Notes under the pieces: generated by a model
The model's input: the letters and a program-made list of their open reading frames with translations, nothing else
Told to the model about the DNA's origin: nothing
Database searches by the model: none
Part shown: piece by piece, positions 1,667 through 63,291 of the stretch
Layout: every line of letters starts with the position of its first letter
Position numbering within the stretch: the first letter of the stretch is position 1
Made by a program: the position numbers and the translations under genes
From: a virus
Virus record (IMG/VR): IMGVR_UViG_3300021959_010405
Location: 53,430 to 117,429 of that record
Direction: 5' to 3' (one strand)
Length of the DNA stretch: 64,000 nucleotides

Positions 1667-2050
1667 TTATTCATCAAAAAGTTTGATCACCTTTTCACTA
1701 TTATCTGGTGTTACAATTTTTGATTCTGGAACTAGTCCGAAAGTTCTATTGTATTGCTGTAAGAGTCTTTCATCCAGCTCAATAGGTTTATTACTTACCG
1801 TAATATCACTTTTATTAAAAACCCACTCAGTACCTGTATCGCGCTGATCCGAACTTAGCAGCTCTGAAAACCATACTGGGAAAAGCTGTACTTGAATTTG
1901 ACCATCTTGAGTTGGTTGAAGGTGAACCGATGCAGGATTTCTCACTACGAGGGTTTTGGTATTTTCGCTAACTAGCTGGCCAATAATTGATCTTTGACCA
2001 TCAATAAAGGAAACTAAATCTTTTGCTTCGACTGGTGTTTTTTCACTCAT
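1667..2050 (-). CDS. Hypothetical protein, possibly Sm/SH3-like barrel
   Basis: 127 residues from the ATG at 2050. A TTG at 2086 would add 12 residues, but the ATG is preferred because a good early promoter (2059-2086) would place transcription start next to it. Short beta-rich stretches (residues 15-75) with alternating hydrophobics suggest a small barrel; this is inference and no named family is certain. It sits between the DNA polymerase and uvsX, and its promoter lies over the end of the polymerase gene. A terminator follows, so it is a one-gene unit. Confidence 0.7.
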   Translation of the reverse strand: MSEKTPVEAKDLVSFIDGQRSIIGQLVSENTKTLVVRNPASVHLQPTQDGQIQVQLFPVWFSELLSSDQRDTGTEWVFNKSDITVSNKPIELDERLLQQYNRTFGLVPESKIVTPDNSEKVIKLFDE

Positions 2051-2058
2051 ATATGTAT

Positions 2059-2086
2059 ATTTTATATTAACTTTTGTATTATTCAA
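2059..2086 (-). promoter_or_regulatory. Early promoter inside the end of gene 43
   Basis: On the minus strand: -35 TTGAAT (2086-2081) overlapping the polymerase stop codon, 16-bp spacer, -10 TAAAAT (2064-2059), then 8 bases to the ATG at 2050. Confidence 0.6.
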
Positions 2087-5921: not shown

Positions 5922-5944
5922 TGATATTATTTAAACTCCTTTAT

Positions 5945-7759: not shown

Positions 7760-8805
7760 TAGTGCGTAACTCTTTTATATAAGTCATTAACATATTGAAC
7801 AACTGGCTCATTATTATCTATATCCATTATGTTTATAAATTCGGTTATTGCTCTCTCCATATCAATTCCTGAAAAATCATGCTCACCCTCTTCATCAATC
7901 ATGGTATTGAAATTAATATCATGCTCTACTTCAATTTGTATGGGTTGTAAAGCTCTAAATTGTTTAAAAAGAAATTCCGAATGTTTGGTAGATATTCTCT
8001 TATCAATAATAAACTTTATTATATTGCCCTTTACAATCTTTTTTAGATCGGCTAGAGGTACTTTCTTTTCCGCAATCTCAGATAAAAATATTTTATAAAA
8101 TCGAGGCGATATATTATTTTCTATAAAATCAATGTTATTTGTATCTAAATCAACAAAATATATACCTTTTGTATCCCCAGCGTCACCAAAATCCATCTGA
8201 AACGGATTACCCACATAAATGATTTGACCTTTTTTTAGCTTTCTCTCAGATCTTAAATGAAAATGCCCTGTAAATGTTAGGGGTGATTTTTTAAGAATAT
8301 CGGAAGTCTTAATGCCATGGTCACAAATTTTAAATGAATTGAGCTTGAATGACTCAATCTCGAAATGACCAAATAAGATATCACTTTTAGGTATATCCTT
8401 CTCAGAGGTACCCCACGGTATAAAAGATATTTTTTTACCGCCATCCGTTGTTATGGTAGTAGTCTTATCTAGAACTGTAATATTATCTCTCCCGTCAAAA
8501 ATAGAAAGAGAATTTACTGAAGATGACTCTTTATAATAACAATCATGATTACCCGGAATAAATGTAATATTATAGTCCTTCAATTCATTAAGAACTTTAG
8601 CGGAGTGAGATATAGTATTGGTTGCGATTGAATCTCTATAATGGTAGAAATCTCCGCAAAAAACAATATCTTTTATACCTCGACTGTCCACAGTACTCTT
8701 AAACCACTTGACCCAATCAAGAGTTATCTTATGCCATATGGGACTATCTCTATGTACACCGATGTGTATATCACTAAAGATAGCAATGTTACTTGATTTA
8801 ATCAT
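7759..8805 (-). CDS. 47: gp47, Mre11/SbcD-like nuclease subunit
   Basis: 348 residues (T4 gp47 is 339), the metallophosphoesterase nuclease partner of gp46. Phosphoesterase motifs in order: S-D12-I-H14 (motif I), G51-D52 (II), G85-N-H-D88 (III), F-G-H-F near 146 (IV) and T-G-H-F-H near 186 (V). It overlaps the end of gene 55 by 4 bases (ATGA) and gene 46 by one base. The 55-47-46 order therefore forms one early unit starting from the promoter at 9263-9290. Confidence 0.95.
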   Translation of the reverse strand: MIKSSNIAIFSDIHIGVHRDSPIWHKITLDWVKWFKSTVDSRGIKDIVFCGDFYHYRDSIATNTISHSAKVLNELKDYNITFIPGNHDCYYKESSSVNSLSIFDGRDNITVLDKTTTITTDGGKKISFIPWGTSEKDIPKSDILFGHFEIESFKLNSFKICDHGIKTSDILKKSPLTFTGHFHLRSERKLKKGQIIYVGNPFQMDFGDAGDTKGIYFVDLDTNNIDFIENNISPRFYKIFLSEIAEKKVPLADLKKIVKGNIIKFIIDKRISTKHSEFLFKQFRALQPIQIEVEHDINFNTMIDEEGEHDFSGIDMERAITEFINIMDIDNNEPVVQYVNDLYKRVTH

Positions 8806-9251
8806 AAATCACTATCGTAAAAGTCACCTTCTTCTAGATTAGATATATTTTTTGTATAAACTTTACCGTCGCTGGAATCAATCATATGTCTTTCGTAAAC
8901 TTCTTCGCGATATTCGGTTTCTGCTTGATGCAATCTTTTTTCCTTTTTAATTCTATTAATAAACGATCTAAAAGCTATAGTAGTAAAATAGGAGAAGGGA
9001 TTATATTTTGATGTTACATCGAAATTTTTATTTTTTAAAGCTGCATACATCTTCACGATTGCATCACCTACCATCTCATCTCTATACGTATAATCTTTAA
9101 ATTTAGAATTGTAGCTTAAGCCTGTCGCTATTTTATTAATGCATTCTCCGAGATAATCTTCGAATTTATCGCTTTGATAGAAACGGGCTATTGCATCCTT
9201 AAACTCTTTAGGTTCTACATAATAATTGCTCTTATCTTTAGTCTTTGCCAT
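8802..9251 (-). CDS. 55: gp55-like late-transcription sigma factor
   Basis: 149 residues (T4 gp55 is 185). The sigma-region-2-like core runs through residues 45-100: a D-E-M-V-G-D-A-I-V-K-M helix, then a Y-N-P-F-S-Y-F-T-x-x-A-F-R-S-F-I-N-R-I-K-K segment that corresponds to the part of gp55 binding core polymerase and reading the TATAAATA box. The many TATAAATA-like boxes in front of structural genes here are its expected targets. Its own promoter (9263-9290) is of the early -35/-10 type, and GAAGG in the 11-base leader could serve as Shine-Dalgarno. Confidence 0.88.
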   Translation of the reverse strand: MAKTKDKSNYYVEPKEFKDAIARFYQSDKFEDYLGECINKIATGLSYNSKFKDYTYRDEMVGDAIVKMYAALKNKNFDVTSKYNPFSYFTTIAFRSFINRIKKEKRLHQAETEYREEVYERHMIDSSDGKVYTKNISNLEEGDFYDSDL

Positions 9252-9262
9252 AGCTAACCTTC

Positions 9263-9290
9263 ATTATAGTAGATTATTATAATAATTCAA
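9263..9290 (-). promoter_or_regulatory. Early promoter of gene 55-47-46
   Basis: On the minus strand: -35 TTGAAT (9290-9285), 16-bp spacer, -10 TATAAT (9268-9263), then an 11-base leader carrying GAAGG before the ATG. Confidence 0.7.
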
Positions 9291-9294
9291 CTCA

Positions 9295-11141: not shown

Positions 11142-11147
11142 CTTATT

Positions 11148-11175
11148 AATATAAATACTAATATGGAGAAATCCA
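11148..11175 (-). promoter_or_regulatory. Early promoter of uvsY-uvsW
   Basis: On the minus strand: -35 TGGATT (11175-11170), 16-bp spacer, -10 TATATT (11153-11148), then 6 bases to the ATG. It covers both the late box and the start codon of the divergent plus gene. Confidence 0.6.
11150..11157 (+). promoter_or_regulatory. Late promoter TATAAATA
   Basis: Perfect T4-type late box, 5 bases before the ATG at 11163. It overlaps the early -10 box of uvsY on the other strand. Confidence 0.75.
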
Positions 11176-11941: not shown

Positions 11942-12517
11942 ATGGGGGTAGATTTAAAATATTACAACATAGAGCTAATAGATATAACAGACATATTAGC
12001 GGATGTCGTTCTACCAGACTGGGTCGACTATATGCATGAATTCTCAGTAGATCTTAGTAAGAAATCTCATAAGCTTAAAATATTTTATCATTTTTTTATT
12101 AAAACAGTCTGCGATCTGCTCTTAGATGCAGATATCTCCACTAAAAAAGTACTATTTCTCAATCTTCGACAGGAGAGAATACCAAATACAATACTTCGTA
12201 ATAGAGCAGCTGCAGCTGGCTATAATGATAGTGAGTTTTACCTACTTGTTAAGGGACTTATAACAAAACTCGAACGTAATTTTCCTCTTAAATTTTACAT
12301 TAGTAGTTATTCTTATGATAAGTTCATGAAATTAATCGATTCTGGAGACGGTCACGCTGTTTATCACATCAATCTAATGCGTAGCAAGTTGGATACTATA
12401 GGTAAAAATAAATATCAATATAATTTAGTTGATAAATTTATAAAGAAATATGAATTAACGTGGCTAGACGAGAACTATTTTAATGGTTTTAAGACAAAAC
12501 TACTATCAATTCTATAA
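11942..12517 (+). CDS. Hypothetical protein
   Basis: 191 residues, no recognised domain. It looks like a soluble alpha/beta protein with no signal peptide or membrane segment; an L-R-Q-E-R-I-P-N-T-I-L-R-N-R stretch near 75-88 is the most polar conserved-looking part. It ends inside the late box that drives the next gene, so the two are closely packed. It may be expressed early from the weak promoter at 11904-11931. Function unknown. Confidence 0.65.
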   Translation: MGVDLKYYNIELIDITDILADVVLPDWVDYMHEFSVDLSKKSHKLKIFYHFFIKTVCDLLLDADISTKKVLFLNLRQERIPNTILRNRAAAAGYNDSEFYLLVKGLITKLERNFPLKFYISSYSYDKFMKLIDSGDGHAVYHINLMRSKLDTIGKNKYQYNLVDKFIKKYELTWLDENYFNGFKTKLLSIL

Positions 12518-12520
12518 ATA
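12513..12520 (+). promoter_or_regulatory. Late promoter TATAAATA
   Basis: Perfect late box overlapping the stop codon of the preceding gene, 10 bases before the ATG at 12531. Confidence 0.7.
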
Positions 12521-16314: not shown

Positions 16315-16322
16315 TATTTATA
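16315..16322 (-). promoter_or_regulatory. Late promoter TATAAATA
   Basis: Perfect late box on the minus strand, 8 bases before the ATG at 16306. Confidence 0.6.
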
Positions 16323-16349: not shown

Positions 16350-16357
16350 CATAAATA
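16350..16357 (+). promoter_or_regulatory. Late promoter CATAAATA
   Basis: Late box 5 bases before the ATG at 16363. It decides that start against an upstream in-frame ATT/ATG extension. Confidence 0.7.
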
Positions 16358-16696: not shown

Positions 16697-16704
16697 ACTA
16701 AATA
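16697..16704 (+). promoter_or_regulatory. Late promoter AACTAAATA
   Basis: Octamer ACTAAATA, 5 bases before the ATG at 16710. Confidence 0.6.
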
Positions 16705-17049: not shown

Positions 17050-17057
17050 ACTAAATA
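17050..17057 (+). promoter_or_regulatory. Late promoter ACTAAATA
   Basis: Late box 8 bases before the ATG at 17066. Confidence 0.55.
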
Positions 17058-20036: not shown

Positions 20037-20044
20037 AATAAATA
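20037..20044 (+). promoter_or_regulatory. Late promoter AATAAATA
   Basis: Late box 6 bases before the ATG at 20051. Confidence 0.6.
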
Positions 20045-24978: not shown

Positions 24979-24986
24979 ACTAAATA
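24979..24986 (+). promoter_or_regulatory. Late promoter ACTAAATA
   Basis: Late box 5 bases before the ATG at 24992. Confidence 0.6.
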
Positions 24987-24991
24987 TATAT

Positions 24992-25777
24992 ATGTATTCA
25001 GATGATATAGACGAGGATATCAATAGCTATCTAGATCTTTATAATACTCCGCCATCCAATCCCCCCGGGGGGAGCATTGGTGAATATCGGGCTCTTATTG
25101 AATATAAAATTAAGCAGCTATTAAAGCAAAAACTTGATAGAATACAAGACTCTAGTGAGGATTTCCAGAAATATCAAAACTTAAAGCACGAGTTAAAAAA
25201 AGGTCGTGAGGTGGAAATGGAACACACAAAAAGTAAATTAGAGGCTGAAAAAATTGCACTCGATCATTTAAAAGAAGACCCGAATTACTATACAAAACTC
25301 GAGAAAATACACGAGGAACAAGCAGTTTTTCAGAATTCCTTTAACTTTAATAGTATATATAATCTAGCAAGTTTACTAGAGAGAGAAGAGCTCGGATTGA
25401 TTGAGCCGATAAAAATTGAAGGAATTGACGCAAAAATGTCTGCCCTTATTGATTCAGGAAATGGGGCATATAACGTACTTCATGGTATAGATATTGAGGA
25501 TAATGGTAATGAAGTAAGATTTACTACAGTAGATGGTGTAAAGGTAGTAAAAGATAAAGTAGACGAAATAACCATTCACGTAGGTGCAGGCTATGATGAG
25601 CATAGACCAGTAGTGGAGTTCACTATTGAAATCGGTAATAAGGTATATCCCGATGTAAGATTTAGTATCGGTGATAGAACAGAAAATCAGCACCCAGTAT
25701 TAGTAGGTGCTGATTTCTTGAGTCAAATCGATGCTTTGATCGATGTAAATAAAACTAAGTCTAATAAGCTCACCTAA
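24992..25777 (+). CDS. Retropepsin-like aspartyl protease (RimB/PF05618-like) with helical arm
   Basis: 261 residues. Residues 30-115 are a charged coiled coil. From 145 on the pattern follows retropepsin-like proteins of the PF05618 group: A-K-M-S-A-L-I-D154-S-G156, then L-H-G near 163, V-R-F near 174, H-R-P-V-V-E-F-T-I-E-I-G-N-K-V near 205, and P-V-L-V-G-A-D-F-L near 235. D154-S-G matches the catalytic D-(T/S)-G. One such domain would have to dimerise. Late promoter and coiled coil suggest a virion or assembly role. It converges on folE with an 8-base overlap. Substrate unknown. Confidence 0.65.
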   Translation: MYSDDIDEDINSYLDLYNTPPSNPPGGSIGEYRALIEYKIKQLLKQKLDRIQDSSEDFQKYQNLKHELKKGREVEMEHTKSKLEAEKIALDHLKEDPNYYTKLEKIHEEQAVFQNSFNFNSIYNLASLLEREELGLIEPIKIEGIDAKMSALIDSGNGAYNVLHGIDIEDNGNEVRFTTVDGVKVVKDKVDEITIHVGAGYDEHRPVVEFTIEIGNKVYPDVRFSIGDRTENQHPVLVGADFLSQIDALIDVNKTKSNKLT

Positions 25778-26408
25778 GATCTTTCTTAGCGAATTCAACA
25801 AATTTATAAAACTCTGATCGACTTGAGTCTGCATTATCTAAAAATGCACCAGTCATTCTCGCTGTTCGCATTGTTGAATCGTGTTTAATACCTCTATTAG
25901 AGCAGCATGTATGATTTGCTTCAATCACAACCGCAACTCCTTTATTGCCTTCGCATATTGTATCGATATATGAGCTAATTTGCGAAGTTAAATTTTCCTG
26001 CACTTGAGGTCTTCTAGAGAACCAATCTACAACGCGATTAAGTTTACTAAGACCGATAACCTTACCGTCTCTACTCGGAATGTACGCGACATGTGCTACT
26101 CCTGTAAATAATGCATGGTGATGGCTACACATACTATTTACTTTAATATTGTTCTGGCATACAATTCCATCATACTTATCAACATTATCGAACGCAGTAA
26201 TACTAGGTGAATCCGAATAACATCCGCTAGCGAAATCATTTACAAAAGCCTTTGCAACCCTCATAGGGGTATCAGCTGAATTAGGATCATTTCTCCAGTC
26301 AAATCCCAGCGCATCCATATATGCTTCATATGCCTTAGATGCATTCATAATAATTTCTTGTTTCTCTTCTTCTGTTCGAGGTTTATTGTGATTTGCGTAT
26401 TTTAACAT
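25770..26408 (-). CDS. folE: GTP cyclohydrolase I, FolE
   Basis: 212 residues, the normal length. It converts GTP to 7,8-dihydroneopterin triphosphate, the first step towards both tetrahydrofolate and 7-deazaguanines. The zinc site and core are present: M93-C94-S-H-H-H98 and, near 165, H-T-C-C. The signature V-I-G-L-S-K-L-N-R-V-V-D-W-F-S-R-R-P-Q-V-Q-E (about 116-137) is intact but not run in full here. QueD, QueF and a DpdA-like enzyme elsewhere in the window point to preQ0/preQ1 synthesis. Early promoter at 26415-26442. Confidence 0.95.
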   Translation of the reverse strand: MLKYANHNKPRTEEEKQEIIMNASKAYEAYMDALGFDWRNDPNSADTPMRVAKAFVNDFASGCYSDSPSITAFDNVDKYDGIVCQNNIKVNSMCSHHHALFTGVAHVAYIPSRDGKVIGLSKLNRVVDWFSRRPQVQENLTSQISSYIDTICEGNKGVAVVIEANHTCCSNRGIKHDSTMRTARMTGAFLDNADSSRSEFYKFVEFAKKDLR

Positions 26409-26414
26409 ATAATA

Positions 26415-26442
26415 AATATAGTATATTTTTTACGAAAGTCAA
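26415..26442 (-). promoter_or_regulatory. Early promoter of folE
   Basis: On the minus strand: -35 TTGACT (26442-26437), 16-bp spacer, -10 TATATT (26420-26415), then 6 bases to the ATG. The expected start of transcription is the A of the ATG. Confidence 0.7.
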
Positions 26443-26448
26443 TAAATA
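26441..26448 (+). promoter_or_regulatory. Late promoter AATAAATA
   Basis: Late box 5 bases before the GTG at 26454. It touches the -35 box of the divergent folE promoter. Confidence 0.6.
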
Positions 26449-26453
26449 AAGAT

Positions 26454-27386
26454 GTGAAAAAGTTTAATCAAATATTAAGTTTATACGTCGAGGATAATAT
26501 AGATCTAGTAAAGGTCAGGCTTAAAGTTGATCCGAAGGATAAAAATATTGTTGATTATAAAGACTTTGACGGATACGAAGGGTATATTTTAAAGGAGGGT
26601 GCTTATTATAATGTATTTTTCTTACAAGAAAATCTACCAGTTTTACAAGTTCCCTTTTCTATTATAAGTGTGACGGATATAGAAGATACAAACAAGTTTG
26701 ATACCGTTAAGATGGCCGCTCTTAAACTACTCGATAAAAAAGGGTGTTTAACTGATAGTAAAATTAGAAAGATAGGGATGTGTAATGAGGTTGAATTCTT
26801 TGAACAATACTTAAGAGAAGAAGGCGTTACAGATTCAGAGATAAAAGATTTATATAAAAATAATTTATTCGAAAATGTATTGACGGAGAAGGTAAACTGG
26901 GGTAAGTTGGCTGGTTTAGCAGCTGCAGGAGTGTTCGCTCCTGGTTATGCTGCGGATGTATTAGCTGGGAAAGCTAAAGAAAAGCTCGGAAATGTATTTG
27001 ATCCAAGACAAGATATATTCAGCGATGATAAACATAAAGGTTCAAGCACTAATACCGCCTCCTCTACAAGCGACAGTACCGCATCGATGCAATTTTTACC
27101 AGCCAGGTATAAAAGTCTGCAACCTGATCGAAAGTCATCTGTACTAGTGAATGACCTAGATAAAATAGGCGATGAGTTACAGAGTAAGGGAATACAGAAT
27201 GACCTTGTACTTAAAATCGACAGTAATATTAAGGATAGTATGTTTGGATCATCAGTTAAAATGGTCAAAATAGAGGACTTAATAAATGTTTTAGACAGTC
27301 ACGAACTAGTAGAAGAAATACTAAAGCCATATCAACGCGGTAATACTGGTCAAGTTAAACAATTTTTATTACAAAAGTTTCCTTAA
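26454..27386 (+). CDS. Putative packaged internal protein
   Basis: 310 residues from a GTG; the nearby ATG at 26452 is out of frame and stops at once. Residues 1-13 (M-K-K-F-N...L-Y-V-E) look like a capsid-targeting helix ending at a gp21 site. A hydrophobic Ala/Gly-rich segment (about 146-170) could insert in membrane, followed by a Ser/Thr-rich linker (195-220) and a charged C-terminal domain. Late promoter 5 bases upstream. The membrane-like segment and targeting peptide would fit a protein ejected with DNA. No family recognised. Confidence 0.6.
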   Translation: MKKFNQILSLYVEDNIDLVKVRLKVDPKDKNIVDYKDFDGYEGYILKEGAYYNVFFLQENLPVLQVPFSIISVTDIEDTNKFDTVKMAALKLLDKKGCLTDSKIRKIGMCNEVEFFEQYLREEGVTDSEIKDLYKNNLFENVLTEKVNWGKLAGLAAAGVFAPGYAADVLAGKAKEKLGNVFDPRQDIFSDDKHKGSSTNTASSTSDSTASMQFLPARYKSLQPDRKSSVLVNDLDKIGDELQSKGIQNDLVLKIDSNIKDSMFGSSVKMVKIEDLINVLDSHELVEEILKPYQRGNTGQVKQFLLQKFP

Positions 27387-27390
27387 TTAA

Positions 27391-27418
27391 TTGATTTATT
27401 TAAAATATATATTATACT
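27391..27418 (+). promoter_or_regulatory. Early promoter of queD
   Basis: -35 TTGATT (27391-27396), 16-bp spacer, -10 TATACT (27413-27418), then 6 bases to the ATG at 27425. Confidence 0.7.
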
Positions 27419-27424
27419 CATTAT

Positions 27425-28054
27425 ATGAGTATGTATCAATCAACTAAAGTAATCGAATTAGGGTCTTGCGCATTTAGGCAATGGAAAGCAGAACACTCTC
27501 ACTGCAAGTATATTCACGGGTATCAACTTAAAGCTAAAATCTGGTTTGGTGGTAAGGAACTAGATGATAAAAACTGGATGGTAGATTTTGGAGGTCTAAA
27601 AGAGCTCAAAAAGAAACTACAAGATCAGTTCGATCATACTACTGTAGTTGCAGCAGACGATCCTAAACTTGATGTATTCAAAGAGTTAGATAAACAAGGC
27701 ATTATACAGCTAAGAGTAATGCCTGATGGTGTAGGTATAGAGAGAACTGCCGAATATGTCTGGAAGACTGCTAATGATCACGTTAAAGAGCTTACTGATG
27801 GTCGTTGTTGGTGTGTTAAAGTTGAGGTATTCGAGCATGAAGAGAACTCAGCAACTTATTCAGGAACATCGGAGAAAGCTAAAGAGGTAATTGATAGTCA
27901 GGATGCTGATATTATATCTAAATTAGGTTCTGTATCTGAGGAGGTAAAAGCAACATTTTCAGATAACCTAGAAACTAAAAATGTACAAGGGGGAAGGCCT
28001 GCACCGGTAGGAAACGCCGGTAACAAATCTTTAAAGGAAATATTTGAAACATAA
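27425..28054 (+). CDS. queD: QueD-like 6-carboxy/pyruvoyl-tetrahydropterin synthase
   Basis: 209 residues. It resembles the phage-type branch of the PTPS/QueD family, which turns dihydroneopterin triphosphate into the carboxy-tetrahydropterin on the way to 7-deazaguanine. C27-x-x-x-H31-G-Y33 corresponds to the catalytic C-x-x-x-H-G-H, V53-D-F-G-G-L-K and F-D-H near 70 are also present. Two usual zinc histidines are changed (F17 and Y33 by alignment), which I recall from marine phage relatives too. Residues 150-209 are an extra acidic tail. The early promoter matches that of folE. Confidence 0.85.
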   Translation: MSMYQSTKVIELGSCAFRQWKAEHSHCKYIHGYQLKAKIWFGGKELDDKNWMVDFGGLKELKKKLQDQFDHTTVVAADDPKLDVFKELDKQGIIQLRVMPDGVGIERTAEYVWKTANDHVKELTDGRCWCVKVEVFEHEENSATYSGTSEKAKEVIDSQDADIISKLGSVSEEVKATFSDNLETKNVQGGRPAPVGNAGNKSLKEIFET

Positions 28055-28787: not shown

Positions 28788-28795
28788 TATTTATT
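28788..28795 (-). promoter_or_regulatory. Late promoter AATAAATA of phoH
   Basis: Late box on the minus strand, 7 bases before the ATG at 28780. Confidence 0.5.
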
Positions 28796-28859: not shown

Positions 28860-28887
28860 TTGACTTGAACTAATAGCACCATAAATA
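28860..28887 (+). promoter_or_regulatory. Combined early/late promoter
   Basis: TTGACT (28860-28865) stands 16 bp before TAAATA (28882-28887), which is also the core of a CATAAATA late box (28880-28887). The ATG follows 9 bases on. The gene may be transcribed in both phases. Confidence 0.45.
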
Positions 28888-35338: not shown

Positions 35339-35346
35339 TATTTATT
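35339..35346 (-). promoter_or_regulatory. Late promoter AATAAATA of adhesin locus
   Basis: Late box on the minus strand, 10 bases before the ATG at 35328. It probably drives all four minus-strand adhesin genes. Confidence 0.55.
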
Positions 35347-35354: not shown

Positions 35355-35382
35355 TTGAAAAACAACAAGTATACTATATAAT
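35355..35382 (+). promoter_or_regulatory. Early promoter of glycan locus
   Basis: -35 TTGAAA (35355-35360), 16-bp spacer, -10 TATAAT (35377-35382), then 6 bases to the ATG at 35389. Confidence 0.7.
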
Positions 35383-43852: not shown

Positions 43853-43880
43853 TTGAATACTCTACTGATTGATATATAAT
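43853..43880 (+). promoter_or_regulatory. Early promoter of the DUF366-like unit
   Basis: -35 TTGAAT (43853-43858), 16-bp spacer, -10 TATAAT (43875-43880), then 7 bases to the ATG at 43888. Confidence 0.75.
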
Positions 43881-43887: not shown

Positions 43888-44478
43888 ATGATTCTCAAGG
43901 ATATAAAACACTACGATGGCTCTTTAATTCATAAAAGATTCGCATATAACTTTTTTAGAAACCATACACTACCAATAGGCAATATTGTTGCATTTAGAGG
44001 AAGCATGGATGTATCAATCGACAATATGATTGATCAAGAGGATGTAATACAGAACGATACAATCATTAGTGATGATTCTATTAACTTCTGCTGGGAGATT
44101 CCTAATATGTGCCCCATGGGCGCTGTAGCATATCAGCGATTGCTTAATACTCAGATAGCGAACCTACTATCAACAAAGTATATACAAAAGCCGATTGAAG
44201 TTGATGGTGATGATCTAATGGTTGTAGATGAGTTTTTAGGTAGCGATAATAATAAAAGAGATAAAGGTAAGTGTAGTGTATCCATTACATACTCGAGTGA
44301 TAACGTTGCAATAGGTCATACTGGTATTAATGTTAGTGCTGGTAGAAAGGCCCCGCCATTCGCATATTCTACTAATTTATCAGACGATCAATGCGAAGAG
44401 TTTATGAATGATGTTATCTCAATGTTTTATGCTATAAATGATGATATGTTTATAGCGACCTCTAAGATAAGTGTATAA
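43888..44478 (+). CDS. DUF366-like protein
   Basis: 196 residues. The order Y-D-G-S-L-I, I-V-A-F-R-G-S (about 33-39), M-I-D-Q-E-D-V (47-53), I-N-F-C-W-E near 66 and Q-R-L-L near 83 follows the DUF366 pattern known from bacteria and archaea. No catalytic mechanism is established for the family, and the call is from memory of the pattern. First gene of an early unit; its stop overlaps the next ATG by one base. Confidence 0.55.
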   Translation: MILKDIKHYDGSLIHKRFAYNFFRNHTLPIGNIVAFRGSMDVSIDNMIDQEDVIQNDTIISDDSINFCWEIPNMCPMGAVAYQRLLNTQIANLLSTKYIQKPIEVDGDDLMVVDEFLGSDNNKRDKGKCSVSITYSSDNVAIGHTGINVSAGRKAPPFAYSTNLSDDQCEEFMNDVISMFYAINDDMFIATSKISV

Positions 44479-46177: not shown

Positions 46178-46323
46178 TTTTAAAATTTAAGCCGAGGGAA
46201 TAGCATTGGCATATCATACTACTCATTTAGAGTAGCGTCTTAGATGTGTTGGAGATTTAAATACCTCTCCCCCCTTTTAATAAAACTATTGATTTACTAG
46301 AATAATATACTACAATATATATT
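46178..46323 (+). other. Intergenic region with two small hairpins
   Basis: 146 bases. Hairpin 1: CTACTC/GAGTAG at 46219-46235 with a 5-base loop. Hairpin 2: GGAGA/TCTCC at 46251-46270, followed by CCCC and TTTT, perhaps a weak terminator. It does not fit a tRNA. The helicase promoter lies at 46289-46316. Confidence 0.4.
46289..46316 (+). promoter_or_regulatory. Early promoter of the helicase gene
   Basis: -35 TTGATT (46289-46294), 16-bp spacer, -10 TACAAT (46311-46316), then 7 bases to the ATG at 46324. Confidence 0.65.
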
Positions 46324-47926: not shown

Positions 47927-49087
47927 GTGGAAAGTCGAGCTTTTAGTTGGGAAGTTAAGGATATCATTACGCAGTTTATTGCGGCGTTTGATGATGTTGT
48001 TATAGGTAGATATAATCGCGATAGAGAAGAGCAAGATAAAGTAGAGGTAGGGTATATCTATCAACCAAAGCGACGCGTCATTCATGATCTGCAGAATAGA
48101 GCTCAAAATTTAAAGCTCCCCATGGGAGCGATTGTTATAAACAGTATAAGCCGAAACTCAGAAAGAGCGTTCAATAAAGTAGAAGGATTTACATACCCGG
48201 GAGTGAGAGATCCATACAAGCCTGGTCCAAACTCTGTTAAAATACCTCCCGTTGTTCCAATAGATATATCTGTTACGCTATCATTGATAGCTTCATATCA
48301 AACAGATATGGATCAAATTATAAGTAATTTTGCTGCTTATGCTAATCCATATATAATGATTACATGGAAGGTACCGACTGAGTTTGGGTTGCCTGATATA
48401 ATGCCTATCAACACAAAAGTGGAATGGGATGGTAATATTGCTCTCGACTATCCGGTTGATGTAACCCACTCAGAGAGATCTGTTATAACAGCAGACGCTA
48501 ATTTTACAATTCAGGGATGGTTATTTAAAGATTCAAATTTAGACCCTGTAAAGAATATATTTTTTATAGATGCAAACTTTCATAATAATAAAATATTATC
48601 AGCTGGAAATTTTATAGGGTATGATGATTATGCGGCATTGTCTGGATATGACTATAATTATAGCGAGGGTGAAATATCTATAACAGACGTTGATGTTGCG
48701 AGTGTTTCTGGTTCACCTACACTCACTAATATATTTTACTCTGTATCTGGTAAGGATAGCTTCCCAATATTAAATCAAGGCTATACTATTAACGACCCAG
48801 GTACTATAATTGTTTATGGTAAAAGATTTAATGAAACTACAAATGTGCTGCTGAGCAGCTCTGGATCGACTGTTTACGGATCGCTAACATCTTTGACTAG
48901 CTTTGATTATTTTCCTGATGCTTCAGGCGCTATCCTACCAGATAGTTCGTATAGAGTAATAACAGATAATGTAATGGAGATATATTTACCTGCGCTAAGC
49001 TCAGGAACATTTGATATTTTAGTAACAACACCGGCAGGGTGGGATACATCTTATAGCGCTATGTCTGGTAATTTCACAAAACAATAA
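47927..49087 (+). CDS. 15: gp15-like tail terminator with Ig-like C-terminus
   Basis: 386 residues from a GTG placed 6 bases after a late box. The order resembles T4 gp15 (272 aa), the tail-sheath terminator: a lead R-V-I-H-D-L near 49, then V-P-I-D-I-S-V-T-L-S-L-I near 108, T-D-M-D-Q-I-I-S-N-F-A-A-Y-A-N-P near 124 and T-A-D-A-N-F-T-I-Q-G-W-L-F near 188-200, matching the corresponding gp15 segments. Residues 260-386 are an added IPT/Ig-like domain (G-T-I-I-V-Y-G-K-R-F). The assignment is by pattern and position before the portal. Confidence 0.6.
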   Translation: MESRAFSWEVKDIITQFIAAFDDVVIGRYNRDREEQDKVEVGYIYQPKRRVIHDLQNRAQNLKLPMGAIVINSISRNSERAFNKVEGFTYPGVRDPYKPGPNSVKIPPVVPIDISVTLSLIASYQTDMDQIISNFAAYANPYIMITWKVPTEFGLPDIMPINTKVEWDGNIALDYPVDVTHSERSVITADANFTIQGWLFKDSNLDPVKNIFFIDANFHNNKILSAGNFIGYDDYAALSGYDYNYSEGEISITDVDVASVSGSPTLTNIFYSVSGKDSFPILNQGYTINDPGTIIVYGKRFNETTNVLLSSSGSTVYGSLTSLTSFDYFPDASGAILPDSSYRVITDNVMEIYLPALSSGTFDILVTTPAGWDTSYSAMSGNFTKQ

Positions 49088-49093
49088 TAAATA
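49086..49093 (+). promoter_or_regulatory. Late promoter AATAAATA
   Basis: Late box 9 bases before the ATG at 49103. Confidence 0.5.
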
Positions 49094-50935: not shown

Positions 50936-50943
50936 CATAAATA
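50936..50943 (+). promoter_or_regulatory. Late promoter CATAAATA
   Basis: Late box 5 bases before the ATG at 50949. Confidence 0.65.
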
Positions 50944-52842: not shown

Positions 52843-52850
52843 TATAAATA
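52843..52850 (+). promoter_or_regulatory. Late promoter TATAAATA
   Basis: Perfect late box 5 bases before the ATG at 52856. Confidence 0.75.
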
Positions 52851-53545: not shown

Positions 53546-53555
53546 TATATTACAA

Positions 53556-54604: not shown

Positions 54605-54624
54605 TTTTTAACCCTTTAATGTAG

Positions 54625-54639
54625 AGGCTCGTGAAGCCT
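54625..54639 (+). repeat. Hairpin in capsid-gene leader
   Basis: AGGCT (54625-54629) pairs with AGCCT (54635-54639) with a 5-base loop, 34 bases before the gp23 ATG. No T run follows. It may be an RNA-processing or stability element of the capsid message. Confidence 0.35.
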
Positions 54640-54672
54640 GAATTAGTCAAAAAATAGGAAAGAATATACATT

Positions 54673-56169: not shown

Positions 56170-56196
56170 TTTAGAGGTACAGAATCCCTTTAAGAG

Positions 56197-56225
56197 CCTC
56201 GGAGAGAAATCTCCGAGGTTTCTTT
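56197..56225. terminator. Terminator after the capsid gene
   Basis: Perfect 9-bp stem CCTCGGAGA/TCTCCGAGG (56197-56205, 56210-56218) with a GAAA tetraloop, followed by T-rich TTTCTTT on the plus strand. It closes the head block against the convergent repeat genes. Confidence 0.85.
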
Positions 56226-56895
56226 ATGTAAATATTCTGCCTCTTACTCCCGGTAACATTCCTTTAAGTTCTTCCGCAGTATATTTTTTACTTATCGGGG
56301 TATTAGTTAGATCTAAATCACCACCTACTTGTAGATTATCTGGCAGTGATGTTATTTGCGTATTACGTAAATCTAAACTACTGCCTACTTCTAGATTATC
56401 TGGTAGTGAGGCTATTGGTGCGCTAGATAAATATAAACCACCACCTACTTTAAGATTATCTGGGAGTGATGTTATTTGCGTATTACGTAAATCTAAAAAA
56501 CCGCTTACTTTAAGATTATTTGATAGTGATGTTATTGGTGTGTTAGATAGATCTAAATAACCGTTTACTTCTAGATTATCTGGTAATGATGTTATTTGTG
56601 TATTAGGTAAATCTAAACTACCACCTACTTGTAGATTATCTGGTAGTGAGGCTATTGGTGTGCTAGATAAATATAAACCGCGACCCACTTTAAGATTATT
56701 TGGTAGTGATGTTATTGGTGTATTAGTTAGAATTAAATCACCTCGCGACCCATTATCGATATAATCTTGTATCTTTTTATACGCCAATCTCTCTAAATGA
56801 GCTTGCTTATCCTCTCTAGAGTACTTTGGTTTATGATTAGTCAAATCGATAGATTCTCTAAGGATTTGTTTGTATGCTTCAAATATAGGGTCCAT
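56224..56895 (-). CDS. Leucine-rich-repeat protein, copy 3 (7 units)
   Basis: 223 residues. Residues 1-14 (M-D-P-I-F-E-A-Y-K-Q-I-L-R-E) look like a capsid-targeting peptide with a gp21 site at L-R-E. Residues 15-55 are a conserved helical cap. Seven 20-residue units follow, each of the form I-T-S-L-P-D-N-L-x-V-G-G-x-L-x-L. This short LRR type is close to that of IpaH/YopM-like bacterial effectors. A C-terminal cap starts S-K-K-Y-T-A-E-E-L-K. Two sister genes lie behind. No enzyme domain is attached. Confidence 0.8.
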   Translation of the reverse strand: MDPIFEAYKQILRESIDLTNHKPKYSREDKQAHLERLAYKKIQDYIDNGSRGDLILTNTPITSLPNNLKVGRGLYLSSTPIASLPDNLQVGGSLDLPNTQITSLPDNLEVNGYLDLSNTPITSLSNNLKVSGFLDLRNTQITSLPDNLKVGGGLYLSSAPIASLPDNLEVGSSLDLRNTQITSLPDNLQVGGDLDLTNTPISKKYTAEELKGMLPGVRGRIFT

Positions 56896-56909
56896 TTAAT
56901 TTTTAGGAT

Positions 56910-56917
56910 TATTTATG
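56910..56917 (-). promoter_or_regulatory. Late promoter CATAAATA between repeat genes
   Basis: Late box on the minus strand, overlapping the stop codon of the upstream repeat gene and 14 bases before the ATG at 56895. The same arrangement recurs upstream of 57527 (25 bases before that ATG). Confidence 0.45.
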
Positions 56918-57527
56918 TATATATTTTGCCTTCTACTCCTGGGAGCATTCTTTTAAGTTCTTCCGCAGTATATTTTTTACTTATTGGGGTATTACGTAAA
57001 TATAAATGACCACCTACTTCTAGATTATCTGGTAGGGATGTTATTTGGGTATTACGTAAATATAAACCACCACCTACTTCTAGATTATCTGGTAGGGATG
57101 TTATTTTAGTACCACCTAAATTTAAATCACCACCTACTTCTAGATTATCTGGCAGTGATGCTATTTGTGTATTATCTAAATATAAATCACCACCTACTTC
57201 TAGATTATCTGGCAGTGATGTTATTTGCGTATTACCTAAATATAAACCACCACCTACTTTAAGATTATCTGGTAGGGATGTTATTTGTGTATTACGTAAA
57301 TTTAAACCACCACCTACTTCTAGATTATCTGGTAGGGATGTTATTTGCGTATAAGATAAATCTAAATTGCCTTGAGATCCACTATCGATATAATCTTGTA
57401 CCTTTTTATACGCCAATCTCGCTAAATGAGCTTGTTTATCCTCTTTAGTGTATTTTGGTTTATGATTAGTCAAATCGATAGTCTGTTCACTTAGGATTTG
57501 TTTGTATGCTTCGAATATAGGGTCCAT
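56913..57527 (-). CDS. Leucine-rich-repeat protein, copy 2 (6 units)
   Basis: 204 residues. Same plan as its neighbours: targeting-like N-terminus ending I-L-S-E14, helical cap with H-K-P-K-Y-T-K-E-D near 21-29, six 20-residue LRR units and the S-K-K-Y-T-A-E-E-L-K end cap. It is one unit shorter than copy 3. Units within this gene are very alike at DNA level (60-base period), so gain or loss of units by recombination is expected. Confidence 0.8.
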   Translation of the reverse strand: MDPIFEAYKQILSEQTIDLTNHKPKYTKEDKQAHLARLAYKKVQDYIDSGSQGNLDLSYTQITSLPDNLEVGGGLNLRNTQITSLPDNLKVGGGLYLGNTQITSLPDNLEVGGDLYLDNTQIASLPDNLEVGGDLNLGGTKITSLPDNLEVGGGLYLRNTQITSLPDNLEVGGHLYLRNTPISKKYTAEELKRMLPGVEGKIYT

Positions 57528-57555
57528 ATGTTTTATTAAATCATATATTGATTAT

Positions 57556-58167
57556 TTATGTATATATTTTGCCTTCTACCCCTGGGAGCATTCTTTTAAG
57601 TTTTTTCGCAGTATATTTTTTACTTATTGGTGTTTTCTCTAAATTTAAATATTCACCTACTTTTAAATTATCTGGTAGGGATGTTATTTGCGTATTATGT
57701 AAATCTAAAATACCGTCTACTTTAAGATTATCTGGCAGTGATGTTATTTGCGTATTACCTAAATATAAACCACCACCTACTTCTAGATTATCTGGTAGGG
57801 ATGTTATTTGCGTATAAGATAAATATAAATCACCACCTACTTCTAGATTATCTGGTAGGGATGTTATTTTAGTACCACCTAAATTTAAATATCCACCTAC
57901 TTTAAGATTATCTGGTAGGGATGTTATTTGCGTATTATGTAAATCTAAAATACCGTCTACTTTAAGATTATCTGGTAGGGATGTTATTTGTGTATTAGCT
58001 AGTTCTAAATTGCCTTGAGATCCACTATCGATATAATCTTGTACCTTTTTATACGCTAATTTATTTAAATGAGCTTGCTTATCCTCTTTAGTGTATTTTG
58101 GTTTATGGTTAGTTAAATCGATAGATTCTCTAAGAATTTGTTTGTATACTTCAAATATAGGGTCCAT
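57556..58167 (-). CDS. Leucine-rich-repeat protein, copy 1 (6 units)
   Basis: 203 residues, first of the three in transcription order. N-terminus ends I-L-R-E14. Six LRR units; the first and fifth carry the same K-V-D-G-I-L-D-L-H variant, which suggests unit duplication. The end cap reads T-A-K-K-L-K instead of T-A-E-E-L-K. Its start is 17 bases after the stop of the WCT-motif gene, so both are probably transcribed from the late box at 59033-59040. Confidence 0.8.
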   Translation of the reverse strand: MDPIFEVYKQILRESIDLTNHKPKYTKEDKQAHLNKLAYKKVQDYIDSGSQGNLELANTQITSLPDNLKVDGILDLHNTQITSLPDNLKVGGYLNLGGTKITSLPDNLEVGGDLYLSYTQITSLPDNLEVGGGLYLGNTQITSLPDNLKVDGILDLHNTQITSLPDNLKVGEYLNLEKTPISKKYTAKKLKRMLPGVEGKIYT

Positions 58168-58184
58168 TTAATTTTCATGAAAGA

Positions 58185-59027: not shown

Positions 59028-59028
59028 G

Positions 59029-59817
59029 TTAATATTTAGTCAATTTTATTTTTTTATTAATAAAATTTATAGTATTGATCATACTCTCAGGAGTGCCCAT
59101 ATCTGACCAGAAACCATCATATACCATGTAGCCAACATTATCGAGTTTGGCGTAATATCTATTAATATCAGTAATTTCAAGCTCGCCTCTATCAGAGGGT
59201 AGTATATCCTCTACTATATTATATACATCTGGAGTATAATAGTACATTCCAGTTACAGCGTAATTAGAGATATAATTAACCGGTTTTTCAACAATATCTA
59301 ATATCTTATAAGAAGGAGTATCGAATTCTGCAACTCCGAATCGGTTCCAATCATCTGTATACTTTAGGAATAGACCACATTTAGTTTTATTATTAAACCG
59401 GCACCGCGAAATAAATTCTGAAACTTCGCCCGTTCCAATTCGATTACTCATTGGCTCGAAATAATTATCGCCCAATATTGCAACAAAGTCCTCTTGTTTA
59501 GTATAATCTTTGCAGAGCTTTAAAGCACTGGCTATTCCTGGAGGTCTATGAGGATCATTCATCTCTTGAATCTTGTATGTAAATTCAAGTCCTCTTGAAT
59601 AACCATCTCCTAAATAGTCTACAATAATACCACAATGATCTTGTGATGTTATAATTAGAATTTCTGTTATACCTATATCAGTTAGTGTCCGTATAGGATA
59701 TTCTATCATTGGGAAAGCTCCCTCGCAAGTATAAACAGGTAGTAGATGCTTATTATTGGTGTGAGAGGCCGGTAGCATGCGTGTACCGAAACCTCCAGCT
59801 AAAATTATACCTTTCAT
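59029..59817 (-). CDS. rmlA: Glucose-1-phosphate thymidylyltransferase-like (RmlA)
   Basis: 262 residues. L6-A-G-G-F-G-T-R-M is the nucleotide-binding loop and K23-H-L-L-P-V the activator Lys region of sugar-1-phosphate nucleotidylyltransferases; I-L-G-D-N-Y-F near 114 holds the metal-binding Asp, E-K-P near 175 and W-S-D-M-G-T near 238 complete the set. It would make the dTDP- or UDP-sugar used by the epimerase, RmlC- and RmlD-like enzymes some 16 kb away. Lone position far from the glycan operon is unusual. Confidence 0.88.
   Translation of the reverse strand: MKGIILAGGFGTRMLPASHTNNKHLLPVYTCEGAFPMIEYPIRTLTDIGITEILIITSQDHCGIIVDYLGDGYSRGLEFTYKIQEMNDPHRPPGIASALKLCKDYTKQEDFVAILGDNYFEPMSNRIGTGEVSEFISRCRFNNKTKCGLFLKYTDDWNRFGVAEFDTPSYKILDIVEKPVNYISNYAVTGMYYYTPDVYNIVEDILPSDRGELEITDINRYYAKLDNVGYMVYDGFWSDMGTPESMINTINFINKKIKLTKY
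59033..59040 (-). promoter_or_regulatory. Late promoter ACTAAATA
   Basis: Late box on the minus strand, 5 bases before the ATG at 59027, inside the end of the RmlA gene. Confidence 0.55.
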
Positions 59818-59830
59818 TTTTGTTTTTATT

Positions 59831-59838
59831 GATAAATA
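59831..59838 (+). promoter_or_regulatory. Late promoter GATAAATA
   Basis: Late box 5 bases before the ATG at 59844. It decides that start over a longer frame that reads back through RmlA. Confidence 0.65.
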
Positions 59839-59843
59839 TTATT

Positions 59844-60377: not shown

Positions 60378-60380
60378 TAA

Positions 60381-61328
60381 TTACTGTTTCGGGGTCTTAG
60401 CATGCGGAACCGTAGCAGATGATAAGGTAGGATGAAGCAACGTTACATCTGATGCTCTCTCCGGGTTAATGTCAATACCCCCACGTCGAGCATATAAACA
60501 TCTTACACACAACTCTTCCGGTTCTAGAACATCCCAAATTCTCTTATAAATTGTTTCGCAAATCTCTTCATGAAAATGACACTCATCTCGGAAAGATACA
60601 ATGTATTTTAGCATACTGATTGGATCAATAGTCTTGCTACTATGTTTCATATAAATATAAACATCGCCCCAATCTGGTTGAGAGGTAACCCTGCAATTAG
60701 ATTTAAGTAGAGCACTATGATATCTGATCTCTGAAGCTTCGCTATCGATAACTTCAAGTAGATCTGGAGTTTCATTATATACATCAAATTCAATCTCTGA
60801 TGTATTATAATCATCTTCTAACGTCGAGTATGAAAGTTTCTGTACTTCTTCATAAGTAGAATTAATTTCATGCTCCCACTCATAGATACCAGGAAACGTA
60901 CATTTAAGCACCTCATAGTTAAACGCAACTTTGATATTAACTTCAGCTTCGAGTAATTCAGAAAGATCTTTTTTAGCTTTTGATTCAATCGAATTAACGA
61001 CCTCAATAGGGTCTTTTCCAAGCTTAGTCATATTAAACGAATTAAAATATAACTTAATAGACTTAGACTCTACAATATATTTACTATTACAAGGATATAC
61101 AATTTTTGCAATACCCGTTACCGGGAGACCATTATCTGTTAAAGCAGATACTTCATATGCATTCCATGTATCGTTACCTACGAAAGGTAAGTTATCATCG
61201 TCTAAATCTAGATGCTCTCTATTTGATTTCCGAGGTTCTCTAACAAGGAGACTTGGATCATACAGAGACTTGTACTGAGAGGACTGACCTAGATGTTTAC
61301 TGATTCGCGAATTATCGAGTTTACTCAT
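60381..61328 (-). CDS. queF: QueF, preQ0 reductase (bimodular)
   Basis: 315 residues, close to E. coli-type QueF (282). It reduces the nitrile 7-cyano-7-deazaguanine (preQ0) to preQ1 with NADPH. L13-G-Q-S-S-Q-Y and Y23-D-P-S-L-L start the protein; V86-E-S-K-S-I-K-L-Y is the NADPH/family signature; L-L-K-S-N-C212-R-V-T-S-Q-P-D219-W holds the catalytic Cys and Asp. F-H-E-E near 252 supports substrate binding. It is last in a minus-strand operon behind DpdA, a formyltransferase and a kinase, and separated from the kinase gene by 3 bases. Confidence 0.93.
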   Translation of the reverse strand: MSKLDNSRISKHLGQSSQYKSLYDPSLLVREPRKSNREHLDLDDDNLPFVGNDTWNAYEVSALTDNGLPVTGIAKIVYPCNSKYIVESKSIKLYFNSFNMTKLGKDPIEVVNSIESKAKKDLSELLEAEVNIKVAFNYEVLKCTFPGIYEWEHEINSTYEEVQKLSYSTLEDDYNTSEIEFDVYNETPDLLEVIDSEASEIRYHSALLKSNCRVTSQPDWGDVYIYMKHSSKTIDPISMLKYIVSFRDECHFHEEICETIYKRIWDVLEPEELCVRCLYARRGGIDINPERASDVTLLHPTLSSATVPHAKTPKQ

Positions 61329-61331
61329 ATA

Positions 61332-61901
61332 TTAATAATTATAGGCTATATTTTTTTTTATTCCAGTATTAATTATACTATCTTTTAATATTTCCATTCT
61401 TTCTTCTACAGACCCTTTCAGCTCAACAATATTTTCACATAAGGGTTTATATTTATCAAATAACTTAATAATATCGTCTCGGAATTCCTTGTTAATACTA
61501 CGTTCACCATCATCGACAAGAGGTATATCTGGGCATGTATAATAAATTGTATCAATCTTAGGCATTAACTCTCCGAACATTTTTCTCGCATAATCTAGCA
61601 CCCACTCATCCACTTTTTTGTTATTGAATAGATACTCTGTATACACAACACCGTCAAGAATACATCTATCCATTATAACATGCCCCTCTCTACAGGTTAA
61701 ATAATTTTCTAAGTGTTGGTTAATAATGCATAGCTGCGTTATATTATTGCCTTCCTCATTAATACTAACACCAAATTTTCTTTTAACTAATCTAGTAACT
61801 TCCGGTATAAACTCACACTTGGAAAAAAGATGATTACGTTTGCAATTCTCGAGAAGGGTAGTTTTTCCAGTACTTTGCGCTCCACTAAATGAAATAATCA
61901 T
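61332..61901 (-). CDS. P-loop kinase, NadR/AAA_28-like
   Basis: 189 residues. G7-A-Q-S-T-G-K-T-T is Walker A; M-D-R-C-I near 79 is the Asp-Arg motif of AAA_28 kinases. It is related in plan to the protein at 28897-29604 but lacks its acidic tail. Being in the DpdA-QueF operon, it may phosphorylate a nucleoside or pterin-like substrate of that pathway; an NAD-linked role is the other option. It lies 2 bases from the formyltransferase gene. Confidence 0.75.
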   Translation of the reverse strand: MIISFSGAQSTGKTTLLENCKRNHLFSKCEFIPEVTRLVKRKFGVSINEEGNNITQLCIINQHLENYLTCREGHVIMDRCILDGVVYTEYLFNNKKVDEWVLDYARKMFGELMPKIDTIYYTCPDIPLVDDGERSINKEFRDDIIKLFDKYKPLCENIVELKGSVEERMEILKDSIINTGIKKNIAYNY

Positions 61902-61903
61902 AT

Positions 61904-62482
61904 TTATATAATAATGTTGTTCCTAATAAAATCTACCCAAAGACCGAGAGAGTTTCTTCTAATGCTATCATTTAAACTATCAAAATCTTTATATAGATCT
62001 TTGCCATAGCCATCAGCAAGTGGGAAACGTTTCTCACTAATAATTTCACCCTCATCAATTTCTGGTATTACCTTATGGATTACGCATCCAGCATAATCAT
62101 ACATATGATAATTTTCCCAGACTCTCTCGACAGGATCTTTGCCTTTAAGGTCTTTATATAAACTTATAATACCAGGATGCCCATTATATATAGTATATTG
62201 TTCACAAATATCAGCTGGAATTATTTTTAACCAACCGTTAAGGGTTATTAGAGTATCATCATGCCTTTCAATAATACGTTTATATGTACTACTCGTTATA
62301 TTATCATCAACTGCAATCAACGACTTAGTCTCGCTCTGTCTGTAAAACTCAAGCAAATTTTTATTAATGTTATTAAATTTGTTGTTAGTAACAACAATGT
62401 CAGGAAAATAATCAATTTTACGAGAAATATCTAGAATTTCTGACCCTGTTTGGCTAAAGAATGCTACCCACTTCTTTATCAT
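61904..62482 (-). CDS. Formyltransferase-like protein (PurN/Fmt fold)
   Basis: 192 residues. The catalytic triad of folate-dependent formyltransferases can be placed: N100-G-H102-P-G and, 41 residues on, D143 in P-E-I-D-E-G-E-I, with L-N-G-W-L-K-I-I-P near 81 before it. GAR transformylase (PurN) has about the same length. Enzymes of this fold also formylate amino sugars, which would fit the glycan genes, but the operon partners here are DpdA and QueF. It shares one base with the DpdA stop. Confidence 0.8.
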   Translation of the reverse strand: MIKKWVAFFSQTGSEILDISRKIDYFPDIVVTNNKFNNINKNLLEFYRQSETKSLIAVDDNITSSTYKRIIERHDDTLITLNGWLKIIPADICEQYTIYNGHPGIISLYKDLKGKDPVERVWENYHMYDYAGCVIHKVIPEIDEGEIISEKRFPLADGYGKDLYKDFDSLNDSIRRNSLGLWVDFIRNNIII

Positions 62483-63291
62483 TATTTGTGTCCGTTTAAA
62501 ATATTATCGAATTGTTCTATATTATAGTAAATATGTTCCTTTTGATCTTCATCAAAATCTTCCTTATCTATAATATTTTCATTATCCGCTAAATGTATTT
62601 CATTTAGTAGCCCATTATCTCCGTAATATTTCATTTGTTTAATTCCAGCAATTACTGGATTGCTAGTATCAACCGATCTTATATTATAAATATTATTTGC
62701 ACCATAATGTTTAAATTCTTTAGCAAGAGAGCATCCTAGAAGATGGTGTGGTTTTTTCCAGTTCCAATAACCGTCAAGAATAAGCTGGTCTATTAGTCTC
62801 ACTCTACCTTCAGATCGTCTCTCGTCAGGAGAGTCTCCAAGCCCGGTAACTTCAAAATATTTCATATCAAAAGAGATAGCAATATAATCAGCATATTCAG
62901 CCATAAATTTATAGCAATCAACAATTTCCTGATAGGTAAATCCTTGAACTGTTCCCATTCTCATTCCAGGTGCATTTTTATATTCATTTACCCAGCTAAT
63001 AAACCCGTTAATAGTTTCAGCGCTATCTTCGAGAACATCCGGAACTATATAATATGTTGGCATTAATTTATCAACCCACTTAATATATTCCTTTGGGTCG
63101 AATGCAGTTTTTAGTTCAAAAATACTATTATCTAAAATTACCTCTCTATTATTAGCAAGAGTTCTCGTAAAAAAATCGTAATATTTTTTATAGTTCTCAA
63201 AGTGATGAACAAGAGCATAATCATAATCTGTCCTTTTTTGAACGTCGTCCATTAAAGCAATCGGAGCTTCATGCGCTTTTAATATCTTCAT
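62482..63291 (-). CDS. dpdA: DpdA-like 7-deazaguanine DNA transglycosylase
   Basis: 269 residues, in the size range of short phage DpdA proteins (tRNA-guanine transglycosylase superfamily). The TIM-barrel landmarks appear in order: L-D54-N-S (base-recognition Asp region), I-V-P-D85, G-T-V-Q116-G, H183-L-L-G, and R-S-V-D208-T-S, where D208 would be the nucleophile. No zinc C-x-C-x-x-C site of tRNA enzymes is seen. It would swap guanine in DNA for preQ1 or a related base made by FolE, QueD and QueF. First gene of its operon, with an early promoter 7 bases upstream. Confidence 0.75.
   Translation of the reverse strand: MKILKAHEAPIALMDDVQKRTDYDYALVHHFENYKKYYDFFTRTLANNREVILDNSIFELKTAFDPKEYIKWVDKLMPTYYIVPDVLEDSAETINGFISWVNEYKNAPGMRMGTVQGFTYQEIVDCYKFMAEYADYIAISFDMKYFEVTGLGDSPDERRSEGRVRLIDQLILDGYWNWKKPHHLLGCSLAKEFKHYGANNIYNIRSVDTSNPVIAGIKQMKYYGDNGLLNEIHLADNENIIDKEDFDEDQKEHIYYNIEQFDNILNGHK

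Follow-up and report, generated by a model that had tools for sequence, protein, structure and literature searches.

Early and late promoters placed against start codons predict leaderless or near-leaderless transcription units in a T4-type phage and its relatives

In phage T4, the textbook example, late transcription is followed by translation led by Shine-Dalgarno sites. Thermus phage P23-45, in which the middle and late genes are leaderless, resembles the system proposed here in having entire temporal classes of leaderless mRNAs, phage and host being unrelated. The −10 box of sigma-70 promoters spans −12 to −7. The T4 late octamer spans −13 to −6, as deduced from position numbering (PMC2988020). 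In bacteria, "TA-led" leaderless genes are recognized by a TA-rich −10 signal some 10 bp before the start together with the lack of a Shine-Dalgarno site, which is the accepted in silico criterion (Zheng et al. 2011, PMC3160421). One paper remarks in passing that phage transcripts are "often leaderless" (PMC5312081). Our search of the accessible, incomplete literature turned up neither leaderless early or late genes in a T4-type phage nor a T4-type clade that does without Shine-Dalgarno use. The locus presented here is like T4 in that the same late octamer, TATAAATA, precedes virion genes and a gp55 homologue is encoded (PMC2988020). It differs from TA-led genes, which are a host property with sigma-70-type signals, in that the genes are those of a phage and a phage-encoded late sigma factor is included (PMC3160421).

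The window, the whole stretch of 64,000 nucleotides that was analyzed, comprises bases 53,430–117,429 of a 117,429-base IMG/VR virus record, the remainder of which was analyzed too. T4 core homologues are present (gp43, gp46/47, gp55, uvsX/Y/W, gp13, gp20, gp21 and gp23); a BLASTP search with Mosig gp45 gave no match, and a gp45 homologue may still be present. Megablast of the window against phage records returned no match, and there was no match to any Rfam family.

Eleven early promoters, with the distance from −10 box to ATG, are listed here together with the gp55 gene.

1587..1614, minus strand: early promoter TGGACT-N16-TATACT, 11 nt to ATG 1575, uvsX
2059..2086, minus strand: early promoter TTGAAT-N16-TAAAAT, 8 nt to ATG 2050, first gene of the DNA polymerase operon
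8802..9251, minus strand: gp55 late sigma factor, presumed to read the late boxes (PHROG 234, E 4e-29)
9263..9290, minus strand: early promoter TTGAAT-N16-TATAAT, 11 nt to ATG 9251, gp55
11148..11175, minus strand: early promoter TGGATT-N16-TATATT, 6 nt to ATG 11141, uvsY
26415..26442, minus strand: early promoter TTGACT-N16-TATATT, 6 nt to ATG 26408, folE
27391..27418, plus strand: early promoter TTGATT-N16-TATACT, 6 nt to ATG 27425, queD
35355..35382, plus strand: early promoter TTGAAA-N16-TATAAT, 6 nt to ATG 35389, glycosyltransferase
43853..43880, plus strand: early promoter TTGAAT-N16-TATAAT, 7 nt to ATG 43888, DUF366
46289..46316, plus strand: early promoter TTGATT-N16-TACAAT, 7 nt to ATG 46324, DNA helicase
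61338..61365, minus strand: early promoter TGGAAT-N16-TATAAT, 9 nt to ATG 61328, QueF-type reductase
63299..63326, minus strand: early promoter TTGATT-N16-TATACT, 7 nt to ATG 63291

Ten of these sites had been named in the preliminary description, and all ten are present. Its statement that seven of them lie at 6–7 nt is correct (6 nt at uvsY, folE, queD and 35389, 7 nt at 43888, 46324 and 63291), with the other three at 8 nt (2050), 11 nt (uvsX) and 11 nt (gp55); it had missed the extra site at 61338..61365, the late-box placement and the absence of Shine-Dalgarno sites. The combination of a TTGA-type −35 and a TATAAT-type −10 element with a strongly preferred 16-bp spacer, here and in the clade of relatives, is that of sigma-70 promoters. 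The same hexamers occur at 31 sites with N16, an absolute count that is partly circular because the pattern was taken from the ten sites named earlier, versus 9–19 sites with every other spacer (12–21), a contrast that this circularity does not touch, any more than it touches the relatives. An ORF-starting ATG follows 4–11 nt downstream at 13 of the 31 N16 sites versus 0–2 sites for other spacers, and a scan of the clade, present genome included, gave 24 N16 sites with a near ATG and 0–4 for other spacers. The early claim of a real 16-bp spacer is thereby borne out; the accompanying proposal of a dedicated early sigma factor or activator is not, as the boxes resemble those of ordinary sigma-70 promoters spaced by 16 bp, for which no phage factor need be invoked.

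Since the window is 65% AT, the pattern might be a chance product of AT richness. In 300 dinucleotide shuffles the number of N16 sites had a mean of 11.4 and a maximum of 20, and in the shuffle check set beforehand 9 N16 sites with ATG at 6–7 nt were observed versus a mean of 0.45 and a maximum of 4. These shuffles, together with the spacer controls and the motif permutations given below, contradict a chance origin, and the pattern is missing from many T4-type contigs that are similar in G+C but lie outside the clade; we reject this explanation, its remaining probability being negligible.

Several early sites have counterparts in relatives or merit separate mention. Orthologs of the gene at 2050 are likewise preceded by TTGA and an AT-rich −10 region, and the helicase orthologs in L027 and L029 by TTGA-N16-TATAAT at 6–7 nt. 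The gp55 protein shares 42% identity with Mosig gp55. Part of the uvsY promoter falls within the divergent ORF beginning at 11163. A strong terminator-like hairpin with a T run (GCCCCCGTAGGGGGGCTTTTT), at about 1618–1644, is located immediately upstream of the promoter of uvsX. The gene at 62482–63291 had been named dpdA; it has no Pfam match and matches only PHROGs of unknown function. FolE, QueD, the DUF366 protein and the QueF-type reductase (25770–28054, 43888–44478, 60381–61328) form a scattered 7-deazaguanine-type set behind early promoters; the product of 60381–61328 is a GTP cyclohydrolase according to PHROGs but QueF according to Pfam.

Listing of the 50 bases before every predicted gene revealed that, as with the early boxes, late genes carry a T4-type box (TATAAATA or CTAAATA) close to the ATG.

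11150..11157, plus strand: late box TATAAATA, 5 nt to ATG 11163
12513..12520, plus strand: late box TATAAATA, 10 nt to ATG 12531
16315..16322, minus strand: late box TATAAATA, 8 nt to ATG 16306
16350..16357, plus strand: late box CATAAATA, 5 nt to ATG 16363
16697..16704, plus strand: late box ACTAAATA, 5 nt to ATG 16710
17050..17057, plus strand: late box ACTAAATA, 8 nt to ATG 17066, 980-aa protein, partly tail-protein-like
20037..20044, plus strand: late box AATAAATA, 6 nt to ATG 20051
24979..24986, plus strand: late box ACTAAATA, 5 nt to ATG 24992
28788..28795, minus strand: late box AATAAATA, 7 nt to ATG 28780, phoH
28880..28887, plus strand: late box CATAAATA, 9 nt to ATG 28897
35339..35346, minus strand: late box AATAAATA, 10 nt to ATG 35328, 733-aa tail-related protein
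49086..49093, plus strand: late box AATAAATA, 9 nt to ATG 49103, gp20 portal
50936..50943, plus strand: late box CATAAATA, 5 nt to ATG 50949, gp13
52843..52850, plus strand: late box TATAAATA, 5 nt to ATG 52856, gp21 protease
59033..59040, minus strand: late box ACTAAATA, 5 nt to ATG 59027
59831..59838, plus strand: late box GATAAATA, 5 nt to ATG 59844 (CTAAATA at 5 nt in relative L029)
63327..63334, plus strand: late box CATAAATA, 6 nt to ATG 63341

Boxes thus precede gp13, gp20, gp21 and large virion-region proteins in a phage that encodes a gp55 homologue, as is the case for T4-type late promoters, whereas the genes behind the early promoters serve replication and metabolism; the gp21 ortholog in L029 has AATAAATA at 5 nt. 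The arrangement [AC]TAAATA-N5-ATG occurs 21 times versus a mean of 3.0 and a maximum of 9 in 300 shuffles, and among 15 permutations of TAAATA only the real motif exceeds 6 occurrences at the 5-nt distance, the next highest permutation counts, at other distances, being overlapping registers of the same late box. The distance peak is tied to ATG and not to GTG or TTG. With the late peak at 5 nt and the early peak at 6 nt, the T4 and sigma-70 registers each place +1 on the A of the ATG. No other internal argument is as strong as this agreement of two separate peaks, one per promoter class, with the distance that +1 = A calls for. At the listed sites the −10-type box sets the predicted +1 at the start codon or up to about 5 nt from it. 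In the intergenic space of 49 bp before 63341, the late box and the divergent early promoter 63299..63326 lie together. Three tandem genes at 56224–58167 on the minus strand, encoding proteins of 203–223 aa, all begin with ATGGACCCTATA, and two of them share the upstream sequence AGAAGGCAAAATATATACATAAATAATC; by their sequences they look like recent paralogues.

The TAAATA and TATAAT motifs could alternatively be read as a translation signal, AT-rich unstructured or Kozak-like RNA rather than promoters. AT-rich starts are common in bacteria not using Shine-Dalgarno sites, and clade starts without a promoter match are AT-rich before the ATG too. An RNA signal is at odds, however, with the −35 element that accompanies the early box at a constant spacing of 16 bp, with the identity of the late box to the gp55 octamer, with the split of the two classes by gene function and with the lack of any peak from permuted AT motifs, and we consider it highly improbable.

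Promoter placement is accompanied by a lack of Shine-Dalgarno sites. A match of at least 4 letters precedes none of the 32 late-box genes, 2 of the 13 early genes and 9 of the 57 remaining ones, versus an upstream background of 18%; a second gene caller found Shine-Dalgarno sites at 6% of starts versus 20% in coding background. The starts behind these promoters combine an AUG codon with no enrichment of Shine-Dalgarno sites. Such a site is found at 54% of starts in T4-type contigs that do not belong to the clade, and T4 itself, with 75%, differs from the present genome, where no enrichment is seen. Clade starts without a promoter match show no G peak before the ATG and are AT-rich; outside the clade, such starts have 38% G near −10 and an 11-fold enrichment of AGGA. 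A few genes, for example gp23, have no box and do have an SD-like AGGA.

The start codons themselves come from a simple ORF caller that takes the first ATG, and true starts might lie further in, behind a normal leader. Across codons 2–11 of 24 ortholog pairs there are 122, 59 and 44 substitutions at codon positions 3, 1 and 2, respectively; coding constraint is thus seen from codon 2, orthologs align from residue 1, and upstream mismatches are fewest about 6–12 nt before the ATG, which is the box position. These codon-position substitutions rule out wrong start codons, to which we attach scarcely any probability: judged by the ortholog alignments, the called start codons are genuine and the box is a conserved upstream island.

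A promoter abuts 45 of 102 genes, counts that are lower bounds because the record may be a fragment, and 35 of the 57 remaining genes begin no more than 30 nt from the preceding stop, which suggests translational coupling. Eight of 11 divergent gene pairs have at most 60 bp between their start codons. The ATG of minus-strand uvsY (11141) is separated by 21 nt from that of the plus-strand ORF at 11163, which places each promoter next to or within the gene opposite, and L022 has the same arrangement. T4 late genes are transcribed from several promoters, and with many units of the present genome located within same-strand gene runs, the boxes could be promoters while most mRNA originates from farther upstream, leadered read-through being translated and the abutting promoters being minor. 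Against this stand the heads of divergent pairs (21–60 bp between starts), which have no near upstream gene on the same strand; moreover, a read-through leader would be without a Shine-Dalgarno site, as none precedes these genes. Read-through as the main source of mRNA is therefore unlikely.

Close relatives as judged by polymerase and portal (73–77% identity) show the same box placement. In the clade, defined as 24 viral contigs with gp23 identity of at least 52% and supported at 100/99 in the gp23 tree, 85 of 137 late boxes lie 4–9 nt from the ATG, 50 of the 137 at exactly 5 nt and about 40% of these near-start boxes at more than 9 nt, boxes being too scarce for classification in some short contigs. 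Among 56 contigs whose gp23 identity is 30–37%, only 18 of 279 late boxes lie 4–9 nt from the ATG, most being at 16–40 nt. T4, Syn9, KVP40, phiM12, C48C1 and most of Mosig are leadered. The T4 late box lies mostly 16–40 nt before the ATG as compared to mostly 5–9 nt here, and within the 50 kb of T4 that were scanned no box stands 4–8 nt from an ATG that opens an ORF. Group B (L017–L021 and L024; about 40% polymerase identity) is without Shine-Dalgarno enrichment and has few late boxes near the ATG; box placement is present there only in weak form.

The T4-type isolate HTVC008M, which infects Pelagibacter (L035, L145, 1-99900), carries 11 late boxes at a distance of exactly 5 nt from the ATG, but its remaining late boxes are at 8–38 nt, no early promoters abut the ATG, and 59% of its genes without an abutting box have Shine-Dalgarno sites. 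Its late-box consensus looks like TATAAATAGTNNNATG. As HTVC008M branches far from the clade in the gp23 tree, beside leadered Mosig, its box placement is apparently an independent gain.

Taken together, both temporal classes very probably comprise leaderless or near-leaderless (0–5 nt) transcription units, as predicted from sequence. The preliminary description had proposed leaderless mRNAs, a prediction that is well supported by promoter position, conservation in relatives, the lack of Shine-Dalgarno sites and the contrast with other T4-type phages; by confining it to early genes it was too narrow, since late gp55-type promoters and the whole clade are included. In the proposed mechanism, host RNA polymerase with its housekeeping sigma factor would read the TTGA-N16-TATAAT early promoters, and the phage late sigma factor gp55 would later read the TATAAATA boxes, each box being placed such that +1 would be the A of the ATG or 1–5 nt before it. 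The first gene of each unit would then probably be translated by recognition of a 5′-terminal AUG on leaderless or near-leaderless mRNA, and most downstream genes, with starts abutting or overlapping the previous stop, probably by termination–reinitiation coupling. Leaders of several nucleotides are likely at some genes, because about 40% of clade late boxes lie more than 9 nt and 3 of the 10 early sites 8–11 nt from the ATG; where boxes lie at 8–11 nt (uvsX, gp55, gp20), the predicted leader is a few nucleotides long. The sequences show where the boxes lie, that they are conserved and their placement confined to a clade, that Shine-Dalgarno sites are not enriched and that the start codons are genuine; we infer the exact 5′ ends, the mode of translation and a host that tolerates or favors Shine-Dalgarno-independent initiation.

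The wider proposition, that a widespread uncultured clade has abandoned Shine-Dalgarno-led translation, with every unit starting at its first AUG and downstream genes coupled, stands slightly better than even. If true, its hosts or phage-modified ribosomes initiate mainly without Shine-Dalgarno pairing, and SAR11 phage HTVC008M acquired part of this state independently. With the same late box and late sigma factor, and the box moved onto the start codon, the leader would be dispensable, and the series from leadered through mixed (HTVC008M) to leaderless would be a natural one for the study of translation initiation evolution. The isolate HTVC008M makes a direct test possible. The pattern may also serve as a host clue for uncultured phages and improve start-codon calls in their genomes.

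Other host clues were sought. Scans of this genome and of a set of clade contigs gave no tRNA, and clade gp23 gave only distant matches (32–38% identity) among bacterial genomes. A Bacteroidota-type promoter, TTG-N17-23-TAnnTTTG, was rejected, as only 4 of 105 clade sites have an ORF-starting ATG within 30 nt and no distance peak is seen. A phage-encoded ribosomal protein S21 was likewise discarded as an explanation: this record has none, and HTVC008M and Mosig each have one. PhoH and queuosine-pathway genes are common with far-T4 phages, which is only a lead.

Rhodothermus phage RM378 (L143, 1-49900), with which far-T4 phages group by gp23, found no support as a close relative and forms a very long branch outside the clade in the gp23 tree; a TTATTTAA motif is repeated roughly 5–25 nt before many of its start codons and may be its own late promoter. 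Contig L142 (1-20969), binned as Rickettsiales, has seven late-like boxes 5–8 nt from the ATG; its gp23 is 70–75% identical to that of jumbo phages, and the related Serratia phage BF is mostly leadered. Finally, in L010/L011 small genes with their ATG at window-relative −17083, −16643 and −2507 share a near-identical upstream module, an A-tract followed by CNCC(C/T)AAA...CTAAATAATATT-ATGAATAA, as if a predicted leaderless promoter–start cassette had been copied.
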